A DNA stretch of 64,000 nucleotides from Pseudoclavibacter terrae (GTDB lineage Bacteria > Actinomycetota > Actinomycetes > Actinomycetales > Microbacteriaceae), in the NCBI RefSeq assembly GCF_008831075.1, contig NZ_WBJX01000003.1, positions 1-64,000 of the forward strand, given 5' to 3'. Positions 7,850-55,593 of the stretch are shown here, one piece after another. The notes below the pieces were generated by a model. It saw nothing but the letters and a program-made list of their open reading frames with translations, was not told the origin of the DNA and did not search any database. The position numbers and the translations under genes are program-made. How positions within the stretch are numbered: the first letter of the stretch is position 1; each line of letters starts with the position of its first letter.

Positions 7850-8737
7850 ATGAGTGTCACCATCGCCCAGCTTCGGGCTCTTGTCACGGTCGTCGACCGT
7901 GCGTCCTTCACCGAGGCTGCTGTCGAACTCGGCGTCGGGCAGTCTGCGGTCTCACACTCGGTCACCGGCCTCGAGCGGGCCGTGGGCGGGCGCGTCCTCC
8001 GCCGTGACGGCGGGATCGCCCTCACGGCGCTCGGCAGCAGCGTCATCGAGCACGCACGCGCGGCGCTTGCCTCCGTCGCGGCTCTGGAGAGCGCCGTGCG
8101 CAGAGACGACACGCTGACCGGCACCGTCCGCCTCGGTGCCGTGGCGACCGTCTGCCAGGGGCTGGTGCCCGACCTGCTGGCCCTGTGGTCGGCGCGACTC
8201 CCCAACATCGCCGTGTCCATCTACGAGGGAGACGACGACGAGATGCCCGAGTGGCTCGAGGCGGGCCTTGTCGACGCCGCGGTGCTCGTCGAGCCGTCCG
8301 CCGCCCCGCCCGGTGCGCTGCTCGTCGCGACGGACGAGTTCGCGGCCCTCGTGCCCGCCGACCATCCGCTGGCGCAGCAGGAGTCCATCCCGCTCGACGA
8401 ACTCGACGACGACGGGCTCATCGTCTCGACGGGAGGATGCGAGACCCACGTGAAGAGGATGCACGACGAGCTCGGGCTGCCCTATGTCTTCTCCCACCGC
8501 GTGCGGGAGATGAGCACGATGTTCCGCATGGTGCAGCAGGGCATGGGCGTGGCCGTCATCCCGTCGCTCGGTCGCGGCATGCTCCCGGACGATCTCGTGA
8601 TGCGCCCGCTGACGGCCCGCCGGCCGCGGCGGCTGGTGCTGTCCGGGCCGAGCACGCGCCCCTGGCATCCGCTGGTGGACGCCCTCGTCGACGCGACGGG
8701 CGCCGACTTCGCGAGCACGGTGAAGGTCGAGCTCTAG
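7850..8737 (+). CDS. LysR family transcriptional regulator
   Basis: A 295-residue LysR regulator. The N-terminal winged helix-turn-helix reads IAQLRALVTVVDRASFTEAA then GVGQSAVSHSVTGLE (about 5-45), and the remainder is the periplasmic-binding-like effector domain, starting GTVRLGAVATVCQGLVP near 85. The ATG at 7850 has GAGGAG six bases ahead. It is divergent from the EamA exporter, its probable target. Its last four bases overlap the end of the convergent gluconokinase gene. Confidence 0.9.
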   Translation: MSVTIAQLRALVTVVDRASFTEAAVELGVGQSAVSHSVTGLERAVGGRVLRRDGGIALTALGSSVIEHARAALASVAALESAVRRDDTLTGTVRLGAVATVCQGLVPDLLALWSARLPNIAVSIYEGDDDEMPEWLEAGLVDAAVLVEPSAAPPGALLVATDEFAALVPADHPLAQQESIPLDELDDDGLIVSTGGCETHVKRMHDELGLPYVFSHRVREMSTMFRMVQQGMGVAVIPSLGRGMLPDDLVMRPLTARRPRRLVLSGPSTRPWHPLVDALVDATGADFASTVKVEL

Positions 8738-9327
8738 CCGCCGACCGTCCCCGACGCGGTGGGTTCCGCACTCGCGAGGTAGTCGACGACCGCCTCCACG
8801 ATCTCGGCCGGCGTGTCCGCGACGTCGACCACGACGCCCGCCTCCCAGGCGGCGAGCGGCTCGAGCACCTCGAACTGGCTGTCGAGGAGGGTCGTCGGCA
8901 TGTACTCGTGCTGGCGGGTCGCGAGGCGGGAGGCCACGAGGTCTCGCTGGCCGGCGAGGTGGACGAACTGCAGCTCGGGCACGCTCGAGCGCAGCAGCTC
9001 CCGGTACCAGCGCTTGAGTGCCGAGCACGCGACGATCGTCGTGCGCCCCTCCGCCGCGTTGGCGGCGATGGTCGCACCGACGACCTTGAGCCACGGCACT
9101 CGGTCCTCGTCCTCGAGCGGGGTCCCGGCCGCCATCTTCGCCTTGTTGGCGATCGGGTGCAGGTCGTCGCTGTCGATGAAGGTCACGCCGAGCCGCTCCG
9201 CCAGCGCTGAGCCGATCGTCGTCTTGCCCGTGCCCTGCACGCCCATGACGATCATGGGCGGGTGGGTGAGGGCGGGATGCCCGGCTGCGGTCGCGCGCGC
9301 CCGCCGTTCGGCCTGGTCTGAGCTCAC
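8734..9327 (-). CDS. gntK: gluconokinase
   Basis: A 197-residue P-loop kinase that phosphorylates D-gluconate to 6-phosphogluconate. The Walker A loop is GVQGTGKTT at 29-37, and the family signatures IDSDDLHPIANKAKM, GTPLEDEDRVPWL and CSALKRWYRELLR follow in order. The GTG start at 9327 overlaps the stop of the dehydrogenase gene (GTGA), so the two are translationally coupled; it adds about 24 residues before the usual GntK start, and Met25 or Met28 are alternatives. It is the last gene of the sugar-acid operon and links it to the pentose phosphate pathway. Confidence 0.9.
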   Translation of the reverse strand: MSSDQAERRARATAAGHPALTHPPMIVMGVQGTGKTTIGSALAERLGVTFIDSDDLHPIANKAKMAAGTPLEDEDRVPWLKVVGATIAANAAEGRTTIVACSALKRWYRELLRSSVPELQFVHLAGQRDLVASRLATRQHEYMPTTLLDSQFEVLEPLAAWEAGVVVDVADTPAEIVEAVVDYLASAEPTASGTVGG

Positions 9328-10400
9328 GAGGCGCCCCTTTCCTCTGGTGATCCATGGTCCTCGGGGTCGAAGGAGAGCAGCACCTTCGAAGATCGGGAGG
9401 CGTCGCCGGCGACGGCGAACGCGTCGAGTGCCTGCTCGACGGGGAACTCGTGGGTGAGCACGGCATCCACGACGAGCGATCGGTCGGCGAGCGCTTCGAT
9501 GACGGCGTCGATCTCGTCGGCGAAGCGGAAGGAGCCGACCAGGGTCAGCTCTCGGGTGATCGCGAGGGAGAGGAGCGCCGGCACCTCGCCGCTGCGCTGC
9601 AGGCCGAGCATCACGACCCGCCCCCCGCGACCGGCGCCGCGGATGGCGCTCGCGAGTCCTGGCACGGTGCCGGACGATTCGATGACGACGTCGGCGTGCA
9701 CTCCGGCGATCGCGTCGGGATCGCGCGCGTCGATGACGCGGCTGGCTCCGAGCTCGGTCGCGACGGCGAGCGGCAGCTCGTGGAGGTCGCTCGCGATGAT
9801 CTCGCCCGCGCCGTGGTGCTTCAGCACGGCGACCACGAGCGCCCCGATGGGGCCGGCGCCGATGACCAGCACCCGTTTGCCGCGGACGTCGCCGGCCTGC
9901 CCGACGCCGTGCCACGCGACCGCGGCCGGCTCGGCGAGCGACGCCAGCTTGAGGTCGAGGCCCTCTGGCAGGACGCGCAGCATCCGCGACGGGAGGGCGA
10001 CGCGGCGGGCGAAGGCCCCCTGCGTGTGCGGGATGCGCGCGGCCGAGCCGAGGTAGGTGCCGGCGGGCGAGAGGTTCGGTCGATCGTCCGGGAAGGGCGT
10101 CTCTCCGTCGTCGCCGGGCGTGGCCGGGTGGACCGCCACGCGCTGTCCGACGGAGGGGCCGCTGCCGTCGGCGGCGGCGAGGAGGACGGTGCCGACGATC
10201 TCGTGGCCGAGGACCAGCGGGTCGCGGAGGATGGACTCGCCGGCAGCCCCGTGCATCCAGTAGTGCAGGTCGGATCCGCAGACGCCGCCGTAGGCGATCG
10301 CGAGTACCGCCTCGTCAGCGGCCGGCGTGGGCTCGGGCAGCGCGTCGAGCCGCAGGTCGCCCTTGCCGTGGGCGACGACTGCGAGGTTCTCCTGGGTCAC
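9324..10400 (-). CDS. idnD: L-idonate 5-dehydrogenase-like zinc alcohol dehydrogenase
   Basis: A 358-residue medium-chain dehydrogenase. YGGVCGSDLHYW carries the catalytic zinc ligand Cys41, GHE (65-67) the next, and VLVIGAGPIGALV the NAD(P) site. The GTG at 10400 is chosen since AAGGGAGGG lies seven bases ahead; the GTG at 10406 overlaps that site. The segment that normally holds four structural-zinc cysteines is here TPGDDGETPFPDDRPN (about 91-106), with no cysteine at all. The best match is L-idonate 5-dehydrogenase, which makes 5-ketogluconate. With the IdnO-like SDR and gluconokinase it completes a ketogluconate route. Confidence 0.8.
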   Translation of the reverse strand: MTQENLAVVAHGKGDLRLDALPEPTPAADEAVLAIAYGGVCGSDLHYWMHGAAGESILRDPLVLGHEIVGTVLLAAADGSGPSVGQRVAVHPATPGDDGETPFPDDRPNLSPAGTYLGSAARIPHTQGAFARRVALPSRMLRVLPEGLDLKLASLAEPAAVAWHGVGQAGDVRGKRVLVIGAGPIGALVVAVLKHHGAGEIIASDLHELPLAVATELGASRVIDARDPDAIAGVHADVVIESSGTVPGLASAIRGAGRGGRVVMLGLQRSGEVPALLSLAITRELTLVGSFRFADEIDAVIEALADRSLVVDAVLTHEFPVEQALDAFAVAGDASRSSKVLLSFDPEDHGSPEERGAS

Positions 10401-24578: not shown

Positions 24579-26009
24579 ATGCACGAGATCACCTGCCCCC
24601 ACTGCCACAAGGCGTTCACGATCGATGAGGCCGGTTACGCGGACATCCTGAAGCAGGTGCGGGACGGCGAGTTCGAGAAGGACCTCCACGAGCGGCTCGA
24701 ACTGGCCGAGGCGGCCAAGCGGGCCGAGATCGAGCTGGCACAGGCGAAGGTCGCGCAGGAGTTCGAGGCGGCCGCGGCGAAGCGGAACATCGAGCTGCAG
24801 GAGCTGAAGGCGAAGCTCGAGGCCGGCGAGGTCACCCGGAAGCTTGCCGTCAGCGAGGCGCTGCAGTCGGTGGAGAAGGAGCGCGACACGCTCGCGAACG
24901 AGCTCGAGCAGGCCCGCCACGACAAGATCGCGGCGGAGGAACTCGCGGCGGCCAAGCGTGTGAGCGACCTGCAGAAGGCTGCAGCAGAGAGGGAAGCCGA
25001 GGTTCAGGCCCTCAAGTCGAAGCTCGACAGCCTCGAGATCACGCAGAAGCTCGCCGTCAACGAAGCCGTCGGGAAGATCGAGAAGGAGCGCGACGAGCTG
25101 AAGGGCACCCTCGAGCGCGCCGCCCTGGAACGGCAGCTCGTCGAGACGTCGCTGAAGGACAAGTACGAGACGCAGCTCCGTGACCGCGACGACGCCATCG
25201 AGCGCCTCAAGGACATGAAGGCTCGCCTCTCGACGAAGATGCTCGGTGAGACCCTCGAACAGCACTGCGAGACGGTCTTCAACCAGATCCGCGCCACCGC
25301 GTTCCCCACCGCCTACTTCGAGAAGGACAACGACGCGCGCACCGGCAGCAAGGGCGACTACATCTTCCGCGACTCCGACACGGGCGGCACCGAGATCACC
25401 TCGATCATGTTCGAGATGAAGAACGAAGCGGACACGACGGCCACCAAGAAGAAGAACGAGGACTTCCTCAAGGAGCTCGACAAGGACCGGCAGGAGAAGG
25501 GCTGCGAGTACGCCGTCCTCGTCACGCTCCTCGAGCCCGACAGCGAGCTCTACAACTCCGGCATCGTCGACGTCTCGCACCGCTTCCCGAAGATGTACGT
25601 CATCCGGCCGCAGTTCTTCATCCCCATGATCACGCTGCTCCGCAACGGGTCCATGAACGCGCTCAAGTACAAGACCGAGCTGGCGTCCGTGAAGGCGCAG
25701 AACGTCGACATCACCGACTTCGAAGAGCGCCTCGACGAGTTCCAGAACGCGTTCGGCCGCAACTACGAGCTCGCCTCTCGCCGCTTCGGGGAGGCCATCG
25801 ACGAGATCGACAAGGCCATCGTGCGACTCCAGAAGGTGAAGGATGCGCTGCTCGGGTCCGAACGCAACCTTCGCCTCGCGAACGACAAGGCGCAGGACGT
25901 GACCATCAAGAAGCTCACCCGCGGCAACCCCACCATGGCGCGCAAGTTCGCCGAGTTGGCGAGCGGCGACGCCGAGCGCTCTCAGGACGACGACTCCGCG
26001 AGCGCATAG
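24579..26009 (+). CDS. DUF2130 protein: zinc knuckle, coiled coil, PD-(D/E)xK-like domain
   Basis: A 476-residue protein. It begins with CPHC at 6-9, which looks like half a zinc ribbon, continues as a long charged coiled coil (about 25-245), and ends in the DUF2130 domain. In that domain GSKGDYIF places Asp260, and FEMKNE places Glu279 and Lys281, a D...ExK spacing expected of PD-(D/E)xK nucleases; the fold assignment is inference. The ATG at 24579 has GTGAGG ahead. A GTPase gene follows after 66 bp on the same strand, then two unknown genes. DUF2130 proteins have no established function. Confidence 0.82.
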
Positions 26010-26075
26010 GCTCCGGCGCAGCGCATCCGCCAGCACCGGCGGATGGTCGAACACCCACAGGCAGGAGACGTGCCC

Positions 26076-27263
26076 ATGGCAGCGACGAAGAGCAGAACCC
26101 GTGAGCAGCACATCGCGGTCTTCGGGGGCAGCGGAAGCGGGAAGACCGTGCTCGTCTCCTCGTTCTACGGCCCCACGCAGGAGCCGCAGTTCGCGAAGGA
26201 CAACCTGTACGAGGTCGTCGCGGACGACACCGGGCAGAGCGACAAGCTCTACCAGAGCTACCTCGGCATGAAGAACGCCGCGAAGGTGCCCGCATCCACC
26301 CGCTTCACGCACACCGCCTACTCATTCCTGGTGAGGCCCAAGGCCTGGTCGGAGGAGCGCGCGAAGAACTCGAAGCCGTTCGACGCGCTCCGCCTCGTGT
26401 GGCACGACTACCCCGGTGAGTGGTTCGAGGAGTCCGCGGAGGGCGAGGAGGAGAGCCGCAGGCGCGTCGAGACGTTCACAGCGCTCCTGAGCTCCGACGT
26501 CGCGCTCCTGCTCGTCGATGGCCAGCTGCTCCGCGACAACGCGGGCTCCGAGGAGCTGTACCTGAAGTCGCTGCTGACGAACATCCGCTCCGAACTCCTC
26601 CGTCTGAAGCCGCAGCTCCTGAAGAACGGCAAGCCCCTCGCGCAGTTCCCGCGCATCTGGGTGCTCGCCCTCTCGAAGTCCGACCTCCTTCCCGAGATGG
26701 ATGCGCACGGTTTCAAGGCGCTGCTCGTCGAGAAGGTCAGCGACGAGCTCGATCAGCTGCGTCAGGAGCTTCGCGGTTTCGTTCAGGTGCCGGAGGCGAT
26801 GTCATTCGCTGAGGACTTCATCCTGCTGTCCTCCGCGAAGTTCGAGCCGGGCAAGATCGAGGTGACGGAGCGCGTCGGCGTCGACGCCGTCCTCCCGCTC
26901 GCCGCGATCCTCCCCTTCGAACGCCACGTCAGCTGGGCGAAGAAGCTGCACGATGGCGGGAAGGTCGCGGAGAAGATCTTCAGCAAGGCGGGCGGGATGG
27001 CCGGCCTCGCCGCGATGGGGGCGCTGTTCGTCGTCAAGAAAATCAAACTGCCCGGTCCCCTTGGACTCGTTGCCGGGTTCGCGGCGTCACTCGTCTCGAA
27101 GGACTCCATCGAGCGGGGAGCCGCACTCGCCGGCGAGAAGCTCAAGACCGTCAACGCGGAGGCGCTCGCCAAGCGCGACTACCTGACCGCGATGCTCACC
27201 CGCTTCAAACTCGACCTCGAAGAGGCAGAACGCAAGGGGATCCTCGTCAGGAGCAAGAAGTGA
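26076..27263 (+). CDS. TRAFAC-type GTPase, double-GTPase-like
   Basis: A 395-residue GTPase in which all five motifs can be seen: G1 GGSGSGKT (17-24), a possible G2 threonine in PASTRFT (72-78), G3 DYPG (111-114), G4 SKSD (200-203) and G5 SSAK (251-254). The last quarter holds a glycine-rich hydrophobic stretch (AGLAAMGALFVVKK and GPLGLVAGFAASLVS, about 305-350) that could contact a membrane, then a charged helix. SKSD in place of NKxD still supports guanine binding. It sits between the DUF2130 gene and a coupled 115-residue gene. Similar GTPases occur in predicted conflict and stress systems of actinomycetes; the role here is unknown. Confidence 0.8.
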   Translation: MAATKSRTREQHIAVFGGSGSGKTVLVSSFYGPTQEPQFAKDNLYEVVADDTGQSDKLYQSYLGMKNAAKVPASTRFTHTAYSFLVRPKAWSEERAKNSKPFDALRLVWHDYPGEWFEESAEGEEESRRRVETFTALLSSDVALLLVDGQLLRDNAGSEELYLKSLLTNIRSELLRLKPQLLKNGKPLAQFPRIWVLALSKSDLLPEMDAHGFKALLVEKVSDELDQLRQELRGFVQVPEAMSFAEDFILLSSAKFEPGKIEVTERVGVDAVLPLAAILPFERHVSWAKKLHDGGKVAEKIFSKAGGMAGLAAMGALFVVKKIKLPGPLGLVAGFAASLVSKDSIERGAALAGEKLKTVNAEALAKRDYLTAMLTRFKLDLEEAERKGILVRSKK

Positions 27264-27607
27264 AGCTCATCTGGGCGACCCGGGGGCGCACCTGGGGGCA
27301 CCGGTTCCTCCTCGATGGCGGTTTCGCAGACCCGCTCCCCGAATACGACAGGGCCTTCGCGCAGCTCGGCGACGACTCGGAGCTCTGGCACCTCGGCGAT
27401 GACCGGGCGGCGCTGCGCTTCCCAGACCCGGAAGGACGCACAGATCGCGCCGGCAGGCCCATCACTCACGAGTTCGTGGTGTTCACGCCCGAGCTGCACG
27501 AGATCTCGTCCGTTGCCACCGGACTCTCCCTGATCTGGGCCCAACCGATCGTCTCGACCCGATTCGCCGACATCTGGGACCTGCCGAAGCCTCCGGCGCG
27601 TTCCTGA
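27260..27607 (+). CDS. 115-residue protein coupled to the GTPase
   Basis: The GTG start lies inside the last codons of the GTPase gene (GTGA overlap), so translation is coupled and the product is probably a direct partner. It begins KLIWATRGRTWGHRFLLDGG and is rich in aromatic residues and Asp/Arg. A central DRAALRFPDPEGR and ITHEFVVFTPE suggest a compact beta-rich domain. No catalytic motif is evident. A GTPase effector, adaptor or activating protein is a reasonable guess from position alone. Confidence 0.75.
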   Translation: MKLIWATRGRTWGHRFLLDGGFADPLPEYDRAFAQLGDDSELWHLGDDRAALRFPDPEGRTDRAGRPITHEFVVFTPELHEISSVATGLSLIWAQPIVSTRFADIWDLPKPPARS

Positions 27608-27659
27608 AGCGCGAGCCGACCGCCCCTCCCCAGTTGCACGAACGGACGAAAGAACCCCC

Positions 27660-28721
27660 ATGACCCACCACGTTCTGGAACCAGAAGCCACAGGAACCGT
27701 CGGCGACGGCGCCGTATGGACGCAGGACGCATCCGGATCGAGGACCCAGGCGGACCCGCTTCGGTGCGAGTTCGCGGGCTGGCTCGGCGACGAGCTCGTC
27801 GGCGTCCATCCGGACTTCATCGTGGCCGGTTCACTCGCCGATGCACTGCGCGCTTCGGACCTCACGGGGTTCGAGTTGCGCGAGGCGGTCGTCACGACGT
27901 CGCCGGAGTTCGTCTCCTACGCTGGCGGTCTCCCTCAGCGCTGGGAGCGGCTCGACCCGACCGGCCGCGCAGACGGGAACGACGACTTCGCGCAGCGGGA
28001 CGGGATGCTGCTGGTCAGCGAACGCGCCCTCGCACTCCTCAACGAGCACCGCATCGTCGAAGCATCCGTCACCGGTGCGGAAGACACCGACCAGACCGCC
28101 CGATTCATCCGGCAGCGCGACGCGGCACGCACGAAAGTGCAAGAACGCGCACGCGCCGAACGCGAAGCAGAAGCCGACGCAGGTGCACAAGAAGCGGCCC
28201 GAGTCACCGAGCTCCTCGCATCCCGCCGCGGCACGCTGACGGAACCACCGACGATGCGCGCCAACGCGGACCCCAAGCGTCGAATTTCGGGGGACGTGAC
28301 CCTTGCGGCGGCCGCCCTGGGTGGCACCATCGACGACGACTCGACGCTCGCCGTGCTGAACCTCATCGACGGGTCCCTTGTCGTCAACGGCTTCGGCACG
28401 AAGTACTGCAGCTACGAAAGCGCCGACCGCTCCCTCCAGGTGCACCTCGACAGGGGCGTTGTGAAATACATCGAGTACGTCATCAAGCCGCACTACAACG
28501 CCCCCAAAGCCAACTACCGGCGCACTGGCCACATCATCGACGGCTTGGAAATGTTCACGCGGGAGGCCGTCCTCGAACGGCTCGGCGAACCCAAGGCGGT
28601 TCGCACCGGAAAACGAACCGCGAAGACCGCCGACGAGTACCGCCTCGGACGGAAGCTCGTGTTCTTCCTCTGGGACGGCGAAGAACATCGGGCCGCCACA
28701 GTCCGCGTGGGACGAAAGTGA
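27660..28721 (+). CDS. unknown 353-residue protein of the GTPase cluster
   Basis: It starts 52 bp after the 115-residue gene on the same strand. The N-terminal half (1-140) contains DDFAQRDGMLLVSERALALL, a pattern reminiscent of Imm11-like immunity domains (acidic residue, then hydrophobic LLVSxxAL), which I offer only as a likeness. A highly charged linker (about 150-200, RDAARTKVQERARAEREAEA) joins it to a C-terminal domain (about 210-353) with alternating strands. No membrane segment or signal peptide is seen. It completes the DUF2130-GTPase gene set. Confidence 0.75.
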   Translation: MTHHVLEPEATGTVGDGAVWTQDASGSRTQADPLRCEFAGWLGDELVGVHPDFIVAGSLADALRASDLTGFELREAVVTTSPEFVSYAGGLPQRWERLDPTGRADGNDDFAQRDGMLLVSERALALLNEHRIVEASVTGAEDTDQTARFIRQRDAARTKVQERARAEREAEADAGAQEAARVTELLASRRGTLTEPPTMRANADPKRRISGDVTLAAAALGGTIDDDSTLAVLNLIDGSLVVNGFGTKYCSYESADRSLQVHLDRGVVKYIEYVIKPHYNAPKANYRRTGHIIDGLEMFTREAVLERLGEPKAVRTGKRTAKTADEYRLGRKLVFFLWDGEEHRAATVRVGRK

Positions 28722-29127
28722 GCGAAGGTGCGCGGGTCCTGCTGACCTGCTGACCTGCGGTCCTGCGGTCAGCGCACGGAGGCCCGGCACTCCCTCTGAG
28801 TCATCCACAGTCTGGATACTGCGCGCAGCGTGGCTTCCACCCCGTGCCCGTGCGGGTTTCTCGCGACGCTGATGGGTTTAGCGGATGCCCGTGCGGGGTT
28901 TCCGTGGACGGCGATGGGTAAAAACCCATCACGCGCACGAGAAGCCCGCAGGCCTCTACGAACGCAGATCCCGAGGTGAATATCTCTGGTTCGTGCTCGC
29001 CACTCAGCCACGCGACTTATCCCCAGGCAGACGGATGGTCCGATTTCCTGCAGCACGGAGGGACAGACTGGGGTCTCGCATGAGTCGCCGGCCGGGGATG
29101 CCGCGCGGAGAGCACAGGGAGATCGAC
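28722..29127. other. 406-bp intergenic region carrying repeat copy A
   Basis: No credible gene lies here. The frames on the minus strand are created by the repeat at 28846-28954. The first 120 bp hold a short ctgctgacctgctgacctg duplication near 28739-28760 and a stretch resembling sequences around other gene ends. The last 150 bp should contain the promoter for the HicB-like gene. Confidence 0.6.
28846..28954 (+). repeat. dispersed structured repeat, copy A
   Basis: One of three 109-110 bp copies in the window (others at 30915-31024, same strand, and 55484-55593, opposite strand) that align without gaps apart from one base. A and B agree at 86 of the first 100 positions. Each copy has an inner palindrome GATGGG-TAAAAA-CCCATC, outer complementary arms (TGCGGG-TTTCTCG with CGAGAA-GCCCGCA), and two related half units. 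It could be a REP-like element or a structured RNA. Confidence 0.75.
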
Positions 29128-30664: not shown

Positions 30665-30810
30665 GCGGCCAGAGTACGGACCAGGGCTGCCTCCTCCGCG
30701 TTATCCACAGTCGGGATGCCGCCGGTGTCACCTCGTCAGTCGTCACCCGTCGCCGCGGGGCCGCCGAGCCCAACGCCACAGCACCCCCACCGCCCCTGCC
30801 TCGCTACCGC

Positions 30811-30890
30811 GGTGCCGCGGTGCCGCGGTGCCGCGGTGCCGCGGTGCCCCGAAGCCACGAAGCCGCACTGCCGCGAAGCCACGAAGCCGC
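30811..30890. repeat. GGTGCCGC tandem array and adjoining 17-bp direct repeat
   Basis: Four full GGTGCCGC units and a partial fifth run from 30811 to 30848. They are followed by CGAAGCCACGAAGCCGC at 30850-30866 and again at 30874-30890. The array is prone to slippage and may vary in copy number between strains. Confidence 0.8.
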
Positions 30891-30914
30891 GGTCGCCCGA
30901 TCCGGAACACGAAG

Positions 30915-31024
30915 GCCCGTGCGGGGTTTTCGCGACGCTGATGGGTTTCTCGGGTACGCGTGCGGGGTTTCGGTGGACAGTGATGGGTAACAACCCATCA
31001 CGCTCACGAAAAGTCCGCACGGCC
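30915..31024 (+). repeat. dispersed structured repeat, copy B
   Basis: Same element as at 28846. Its inner palindrome is GTGATGGG-TAACAA-CCCATCAC and its ends pair as GTGCGG with CCGCAC. At the outer arm, C15-G96 of copy A is T15-A96 here, a compensatory change that favours a conserved secondary structure. Confidence 0.75.
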
Positions 31025-55483: not shown

Positions 55484-55593
55484 GACCGTGTTGGCTTTTG
55501 CTCACCCTGATGGGTTTTTACCCATCACCGTTCGCCGAAACCCAGCACGAGCATCCCAGAAACCCATCAGGGCTGCGGGAACCCCGCACGGTC
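55484..55593 (-). repeat. dispersed structured repeat, copy C
   Basis: Read on the minus strand it aligns without gaps over 110 positions to copy B, 86 of them identical. The inner palindrome is GTGATGGG-TAAAAA-CCCATCA, and its ends pair as GACCGTG with CACGGTC. It lies between the convergent ends of nagA and nagB. Confidence 0.75.

Follow-up and report, generated by a model that had tools for sequence, protein, structure and literature searches.

In the DO-GTPase/GAP1 systems, as described by Kaur et al. (2020; PMC7159879), a GTPase recognizable by a glutamate in its Walker B motif is encoded directly upstream of GAP1; zinc ribbons are found on about 60% of the DO-GTPase family, and the role in biological conflict assigned to it is itself a prediction. 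A literature search returned no paper on DO-GTPase systems beyond this neighbourhood-based prediction of 2020. Two further papers portray roadblock and longin proteins as platforms for GTPases (PMC11016934, PMC10933270). Here we analyse a locus from Pseudoclavibacter terrae (assembly GCF_008831075.1, contig NZ_WBJX01000003.1, positions 1 to 64,000 of the forward strand; this whole stretch of 64,000 nucleotides (nt) is called the window), in which the gene of a TRAFAC-class GTPase of 395 residues (26076..27263, plus strand) is followed by that of a stand-alone 115-residue protein, p115 (27260..27607, plus strand). The nearest named relatives of the source genome are Pseudoclavibacter strains RFBB5, AY1H1 and AY1F1. 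The two genes probably constitute a conserved GTPase-regulator switch, a stripped-down form of the DO-GTPase/GAP1 system in which a minimal longin-like protein takes the role of the partner.

The GTPase gene and p115 form a constant pair

An earlier note on this DNA, made from the letters alone, had grouped four closely spaced genes of one strand into a possible GTPase-nuclease module. All four open reading frames (ORFs) lie on the plus strand where it had placed them, and encode a DUF2130 protein, the GTPase, p115 and a protein of 353 residues (p353). The GTPase starts at ATG 26076, with an in-frame GTG at 26070 as a possible alternative, and ends at 27263. The overlap between its stop and the p115 start, which had also been noticed, amounts to 4 nt, the GTG start of p115 at 27260 lying over the TGA of the GTPase. 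A Pfam scan of the window proteins named DUF2130 and DO-GTPase2 for the first two genes, the GTPase scoring above the curated cut-off, and gave no match for p115 or p353.

Relatives of the GTPase were found at 166 loci in named genomes. The best 80 of the 166 were examined together with the window and with L010, L011 and L012 (two other relatives and one Curtobacterium plasmid), which makes 84 loci; L032-L034 are from the same genomes as L007-L009. At all 84, p115 lies directly 3′ of the GTPase, with 0-39 nt between the matched domain edges, and these paired loci span at least eight orders. A census of Micrococcales, whose genomes may overlap with those of the 84-locus set (any overlap was kept in), detected the GTPase in 21 of 396 genomes, 19 of them, the source genome included, with strong matches. 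p115 adjoins the GTPase in 18 of the 18 strong matches from other genomes; next to the two weak ones (E 5.7e-5 and 8.5e-5) there is no p115. Within the genus of the window, both genes co-occur in the same five of ten genomes. Because it is present in every relative examined, the pairing is far beyond chance. The sequences of the two proteins also covary: the Mantel r is 0.66 (n = 81), against a maximum of 0.22 in 500 permutations, a correlation for which shared ancestry alone would suffice. No third gene family recurs in more than ten of the 84 loci by crude gene calls, which recovered p115 itself in only 48 of the 84 and under-count small genes.

Of the grouping put forward in the earlier note, the GTPase and p115 therefore stand as a pair, and the remainder does not hold. 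The DUF2130 gene lies near the pair in 3 of the 84 loci (the window, L032 and L033) and p353 beside it in 4, all of them in the genus of the window. Because the genes are not conserved together, the four-gene module falls.

Sequence features of the GTPase

Judged by its sequence, the GTPase is a divergent DO-GTPase2 relative. The family model PF19993 is matched by 69 of 69 aligned relatives at E ≤ 0.01 and by the window protein at E 3e-8, and of the GTPase motifs that had been read from the DNA, G1, G3, G4 and G5 are in place. In the P-loop or G1 motif GGSGSGKT (26124..26147, plus strand), S21, G22 and K23 are identical in all 69 relatives and T24 in 97%. The G3 or Walker B motif DYPGE (26406..26420, plus strand), which ends in the glutamate typical of DO-GTPases, retains D111, Y112, P113 and G114 in 100% and E115 in 97%. 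G4 is of the SKxD type, with SKSD and not NKxD in the window protein (26673..26684, plus strand; S200, K201 and D203 100%), and G5 consists of SSA within SSAK (26829..26837, plus strand; S252 100%, S253 97%, A254 99%).

The C-terminal region includes a hydrophobic stretch at residues 301-319 (26976..27032, plus strand), with a best 19-residue Kyte-Doolittle mean of 1.49 in the window protein; of the 69 relatives, 54 reach a value of 1.2 or more and 16 a value of 1.6 or more. Such a composition would make membrane contact possible. No zinc ribbon was matched on the window GTPase, and in seven aligned members the P-loop is located within about 25 residues of the start. When the GTPase profile was compared with 26 P-loop ORFs located upstream of GAP1-N2 domains, the two were collinear (hhalign score 38.8, pairwise E 2e-4, probability 46.9), whereas the best of 30 column shuffles scored 21.3. 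A sequence search of solved structures with the GTPase, p115 and p353 profiles returned nothing credible.

p115 is predicted to adopt a longin-like fold

Two motifs mark p115 in an alignment of 83 members. Motif 1, WATRGRTWGHRFL (27272..27310, plus strand; consensus WATRGRxWGFRFL), contains the invariant residues W5, R8, G9, W12 and G13. In motif 2, RFPDPEGRTDRAGRPITH (27416..27469, plus strand; consensus RFPDPxGRxDxAGRVIPH), P57, D62 and R66 are invariant, and R53, D56, R60, G65, I68 and H70 are conserved in at least 90%. The AlphaFold2 model, calculated from 82 sequences, has a predicted local distance difference test score (pLDDT) of 94.7 and a predicted template modelling score (pTM) of 0.88. 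As assigned by DSSP, strands 3-7 and 15-19, helix 26-33 and strands 42-45, 49-55 and 69-75 are followed by helices, giving the order ββ-α-βββ-ααα. Longin domains are built as β-β-α-β-β-β-α(-α), with which the strand and helix order of the model agrees.

A Foldseek search of the PDB with this model listed 50 rows, 32 of which are longin- or roadblock-type entries (30 by title), none of them a significant match. They comprise GATOR1/SEA, FLCN-FNIP, Ragulator, MglB (3t1r, 3t1s), VAMP7, Sec22b, BLOC-3 and Rag-like GTPases; the two 5x6u rows we take to be Ragulator. No sequence relation to roadblock families was detected in Pfam or in the sequence search of solved structures, and no GAP1 model is present among the 12 Pfam families matched by any of the 83 members at E up to 10. 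The predicted fold of p115 is longin-like in its order of elements.

p115 in comparison with GAP1-N2 and MglB

Of 394 genomes from the class, 49 contain a match to the GAP1-N2 domain. Among the 31 GAP1-N2 loci tried (L119 and L136 left out), 26 have a P-loop ORF whose end falls −1 to 192 nt ahead of that domain, and because this ORF precedes GAP1-N2 as the GTPase precedes p115, p115 takes the slot of GAP1. Thirty-one GAP1-N2 sequences were aligned and one was modelled (pLDDT 94.4). Its strands 2-9 and 18-24, helices 30-39 and 50-55 and strands 59-66, 69-79 and 88-96 follow one another in the order seen in p115, apart from an additional helix. Of the five longin-type rows in its Foldseek listing, four also appear in the p115 list, namely 7t3b_B (template modelling score (TM) 0.51, probability 0.91), 9v0j_A (0.96), 7t3a_B and 6ulg_N. 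By eye, strand 2 of both proteins contains G-F-(R/Q)-F, and both have D..GR....H ahead of strand 5.

Membership of p115 in GAP1-N2 by sequence was tried with hhalign against 7 and then 31 GAP1-N2 sequences, at several settings and with one reversed and 60 shuffled controls; it was rejected, all comparisons being non-significant. For this reason we retain the kinship as a structural resemblance only. p115 probably works like a stand-alone GAP1-N2-type regulator, and it may be one by membership.

The likeness to DO-GTPase/GAP1 systems thus comprises a DO-GTPase2-type GTPase with the Walker B glutamate, a partner gene directly downstream, the ββ-α-βββ order and common longin-type fold neighbours. 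In contrast to GAP1 with its three domains (N, M and C), the partner here is one domain of 115 residues without GAP1-M or GAP1-C, and the GTPase lacks zinc ribbons. No FNIII, tubulin, HSP70 or GASH gene was recognized in the two-gene unit, nor was an FNIII or GASH component found among the seven window proteins scanned; flanks of the other loci were only sampled. MglA/MglB and other pairs of a GTPase with a roadblock/longin regulator likewise unite the GTPase and its own small partner in one operon, and two MglB structures are among the p115 fold neighbours named above. However, MglA is a small Ras-like GTPase, whereas the 395-residue enzyme described here possesses a C-terminal region of its own, and p115 has the roadblock fold resemblance without the detectable sequence relation.

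Distribution and genomic context of the pair

The pair is patchy, rare and seldom syntenic. Among 396 genomes sampled from the phylum, p115 was found in two, including its own. In the synteny counts, which use 66 loci, 88 same-genus pairs had enough flank for comparison. Any similar flank within 4 kb is common to 16 of the 88 (14 of 88 by the first criteria), and in no pair are both sides alike; an initial count from crude gene calls had given 8 of 93. For different-genus pairs, 43 of 2,057 share a flank. Because so few same-genus pairs share a flank, we conclude that the GTPase and p115 usually reside at differing locations. The GTPase tree, with 14 changes of order among eight orders (minimum 7), is mild evidence for transfer.

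Three Curtobacterium plasmid records, which hardly differ in length, carry the whole pair. One plasmid copy is followed by a type ISP restriction-modification (R-M) gene and, a few kilobases on, by SAVED and CD-NTase genes. In the congener G007, genes that look by eye like type I R-M lie just upstream of the pair. Running PADLOC on the four window proteins yielded nothing meaningful.

Phage relatives of p115

p115 matches the unnamed phage family phrog_38171 (E 2.3e-10). The C-terminal domain of gp8 from Arthrobacter phage Nightmare, a member of this family, is homologous to p115 (33.6% identity, E 2e-11), and the two also match in fold in BFVD (E 3e-8, TM 0.86). Phage Tokki is matched as well, and a similar protein is present on an IMG/VR contig. 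Unlike p115, the gp8 domain is fused behind a tagged N-terminus, with HYGVKGMKWG near the start and a hydrophobic segment after it, and is encoded in a structural-gene region. The five consecutive genes gp8-gp12 (L127, 1-2961), located between terminase and portal, differ in their C-terminal parts but all carry an HYGVKGMKWG-type stretch close to the N-terminus, a pattern suggesting that the stretch is a shared packaging or targeting signal; a literature search on this motif brought up nothing relevant. In the IMG/VR relative, too, the p115-like domain comes after such a stretch and a hydrophobic segment, and L128 was noted alongside Nightmare for the same pattern.

No GTPase of the DO-GTPase2-like family was found in phage Nightmare. 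A profile search of IMG/VR produced 42 pattern matches for p115 and 69 for p353, none of them confirmed. The phage p115-like domain allows two readings, as a decoy against the host switch or as an effector domain. A record that seemed to be a phage carrying the pair, MT835574.1 (L125, 74-10409; 'Bacteriophage sp.', human stool), was rejected as bacterial, since over 5.6 kb it shares 96% identity with Brachybacterium L071; the stretch is probably mislabelled bacterial DNA.

Proposed mechanism

We favour a minimal GTPase-regulator switch; the GTPase-nuclease idea fails. By analogy with the systems above, p115 would be a dedicated regulator of the GTPase, acting as a GTPase-activating protein (GAP), a guanine nucleotide exchange factor (GEF) or a dimer platform. 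The GTPase would bind GTP and sit at the membrane or in a larger complex, perhaps via its hydrophobic C-terminal region. p115 would bind the switch face of the GTPase, where an invariant arginine might help to set the GTP/GDP state, much as MglB acts on MglA and as GAP1 is thought to act on DO-GTPases. A signal from an invader or from the envelope would shift this state and thereby elicit an output encoded outside the pair. The regulator domain would thus operate alone, with no GAP1-M, GAP1-C or fused effectors.

A role of the pair in conflict between bacteria and phages is plausible, given the place of the GTPase in the DO-GTPase2 family and the scattered occurrence and infrequent synteny of the pair; the differing sites of the pair between genomes and the p115 relatives in a few phages suggest it as well. 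To this extent the idea of defence raised in the earlier note stays plausible, but it is a role that we infer.

Several observations weigh against the proposed switch or its placement among conflict systems. No Pfam family is matched by more than two of the 83 p115 members. None of the Foldseek matches of p115 reaches E 0.001, the best being 0.033, and its TM to longin-type chains is at most 0.43, in a listing that gives whole chains and not the matched part. By E-value, the GAP1-N2 model ranks nearer to PAS/LOV structures, which fill most of its rows, than to longin-type ones, which account for 5 of 50. The hhalign score of p115 against GAP1-N2, 15.6, was reached by 5 of 60 column shuffles. 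Crude gene calls at the 84 loci revealed no conserved effector partner near the pair, and p115-like domains stand alone in phages. Furthermore, some copies are broken: in L047, L062, L072 and L180 the GTPase is split into at least two pieces, and plasmid D40 of Curtobacterium sp. MCBD17_040 (L183; NZ_CP126274.1, 2477-2910) bears a disrupted p115 remnant with no adjoining GTPase. Its similarity to L012 (90.6% identity) sets in at the start of p115 and continues into the type ISP gene; the remnant is a decayed copy of the pair. Finally, PADLOC and Pfam disclosed no clear gradient of defence genes between near and far flanking genes. This comparison drew at random on crude gene calls at 77 loci, covering 137 of 220 near genes and 148 of 178 far ones, with the top 25 families considered; the far genes come from the same loci and are a weak control. 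As near and far counts do not clearly differ, we make no claim of a defence island.

A wider reading, which is doubtful as a whole, joins these threads. According to it, p115 would represent an undescribed bacterial family of longin-fold regulators, the stand-alone partner of a mobile actinobacterial DO-GTPase-like switch. The same fold would underlie GAP1-N2, so that GAP1/DO-GTPase immunity and eukaryotic longin control (GATOR1, FLCN, Rag) would share one kind of regulator, and the phage copy would be a decoy that disarms the host GTPase.

A two-gene version with a small, well-modelled partner gives direct access in vitro to the question of how GAP1 acts on a DO-GTPase. If a longin-like regulator does belong to an invariant bacterial operon, this would also bear on the origin of eukaryotic longin-type GTPase control, and the phage copy of the partner domain points to the question of counter-defence.

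Alternative explanations

The same two genes might instead serve ordinary cell biology, such as polarity, envelope or growth control in the manner of MglA/MglB or the Streptomyces conservons, with no phage role; we consider this possible, although it is not the explanation we prefer. Longin/roadblock partners of bacterial GTPases are known in motility and polarity. An ordinary function would agree with the absence of an effector domain and of a clear defence-gene gradient near the pair, and some local order is indeed kept, as in Brachybacterium, where L071 and L088 share their downstream flank. It is harder to reconcile with the rarity of the GTPase in Micrococcales (19 strong matches in 396 genomes) and its presence in only half of the ten genomes of the genus, with the small share of same-genus pairs that have any flank in common and with the position of the plasmid copy near type ISP R-M, SAVED and CD-NTase genes.

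In the genus of the window, p353 (27660..28721, plus strand; 353 codons) could act as a third working component that confers target specificity through a variable C-terminal domain. We regard this as unlikely. In the four genomes with the close GTPase type, p353 is encoded beside p115 in every case, 35-62 nt apart and on the same strand, and these four are also the only ones of the ten genus genomes that possess it. The C-domain (residues 206-353; 28275..28718, plus strand) has been abruptly replaced between closely related strains, because the window protein and its nearest relative agree in 94% of the N-domain (127/135) but in only 51% of the C-domain (76/148); the other three genomes share 81-90% of the C-domain. 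However, p353 is missing from the other 80 loci, including that of the congener G002, which has the pair. Moreover, relatives of its N-domain (residues 1-135; 27660..28064, plus strand) occur in immunity-type settings, and none of the plasmid records among these relatives matched the GTPase. One relative is located in a bacteriocin and immunity array on a Vibrio campbellii plasmid (L124; 29% identity, E 1e-4) and another in a cassette-like array of Vibrio (E 6e-10); in an actinobacterium (L126), inspection by eye shows a toxin-like gene and, behind it, two similar genes of immunity-like type and a relative of the p353 N-domain. A further relative, on a Paraburkholderia megaplasmid, has no immunity-type setting. 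The two Vibrio relatives and the Paraburkholderia one are annotated as stand-alone genes of 134-141 residues. p353 matches the unnamed phage family phrog_32682 (E 4.8e-9), and a search for p353 in phages gave no match. p353 would fit a polymorphic immunity protein: it resembles the immunity proteins of polymorphic toxins and bacteriocins in the arrays that hold its N-domain relatives and in the replacement of its C-domain, and differs from them in having two linker-joined domains. No toxin gene was recognized next to p353 in the window.

Alternatively, p115 might be an effector, a small toxin or enzyme, with the GTPase as its sensor or inhibitor in toxin-antitoxin style, and the phage domain would then act inside the host. 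This is improbable. The p115-like domain does form the end of Nightmare gp8, one of five tagged genes, and of the IMG/VR protein, and of the charged residues, R8, D62 and R66 do not vary among the 83 members, and R53, D56, R60 and H70 are kept in 90% of them or more. The predicted fold, however, suggests a binding platform and no known catalytic fold, and the constant order of GTPase and then p115 resembles DO-GTPase/GAP1, unlike that of a fast-changing effector.

The McrBC-like module of the earlier note, in which the GTPase drives a DUF2130 nuclease with p115 and p353 as accessories, is scarcely credible: the genes are closely spaced on one strand in the window, L007 and L008, and the ExK residues are kept in seven DUF2130 sequences, but the DUF2130 gene is in no sense a constant partner, as it accompanies the pair at only the three loci given above, is absent from G006, which has the GTPase, and is present in G001 and G008, which do not.

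Neighbouring genes and repeats

The DUF2130 gene (24579..26009, plus strand; PF09903, E 1.4e-90) encodes a coiled coil and a PD-(D/E)xK-like motif, and occurs in six of the ten genus genomes; the G002 copy is separated from the GTPase by more than 1 Mb. The D260...E279xK281 pattern is borne out in seven diverse sequences by an invariant E279 and K281 and an acidic residue at or next to D260, which is compatible with PD-(D/E)xK. The 'zinc knuckle' reported for the same protein reduces to a single CxxC (C6, C9), with ribbon models under their cut-offs. We judge DUF2130 and p353 to be neighbours of the switch and not working parts of it. In G001 (L155, about 8123-9628), the DUF2130 gene has, by eye, transposase-like genes close by to its left and right, in one direction beyond a single other gene; the DUF2130 gene may itself be mobile.

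On a Frondihabitans plasmid (L013, 6001-6183), a short GTPase fragment covering 15% of the query lies beside an IS3-family transposase and is probably another decayed copy. Searches for promoters, terminators and Rfam families around the window genes gave nothing beyond chance. A near-palindromic repeat of 105 nt with the core GATGGGTAAAAACCCATC is present in the window at 28846-28950, 30915-31019 and, on the minus strand, 55508-55591. Its first two copies, which share 87% identity, lie on either side of the HicB-like and DUF559 genes, the third is partial and distant, and three further copies are found in the congener locus L008; the repeat resembles an interspersed palindromic element of small size. 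An array of 8-nt units (TGCCGCGG and variants) extends from 30789 to 30892, between the DUF559 gene and a cupin-like gene.

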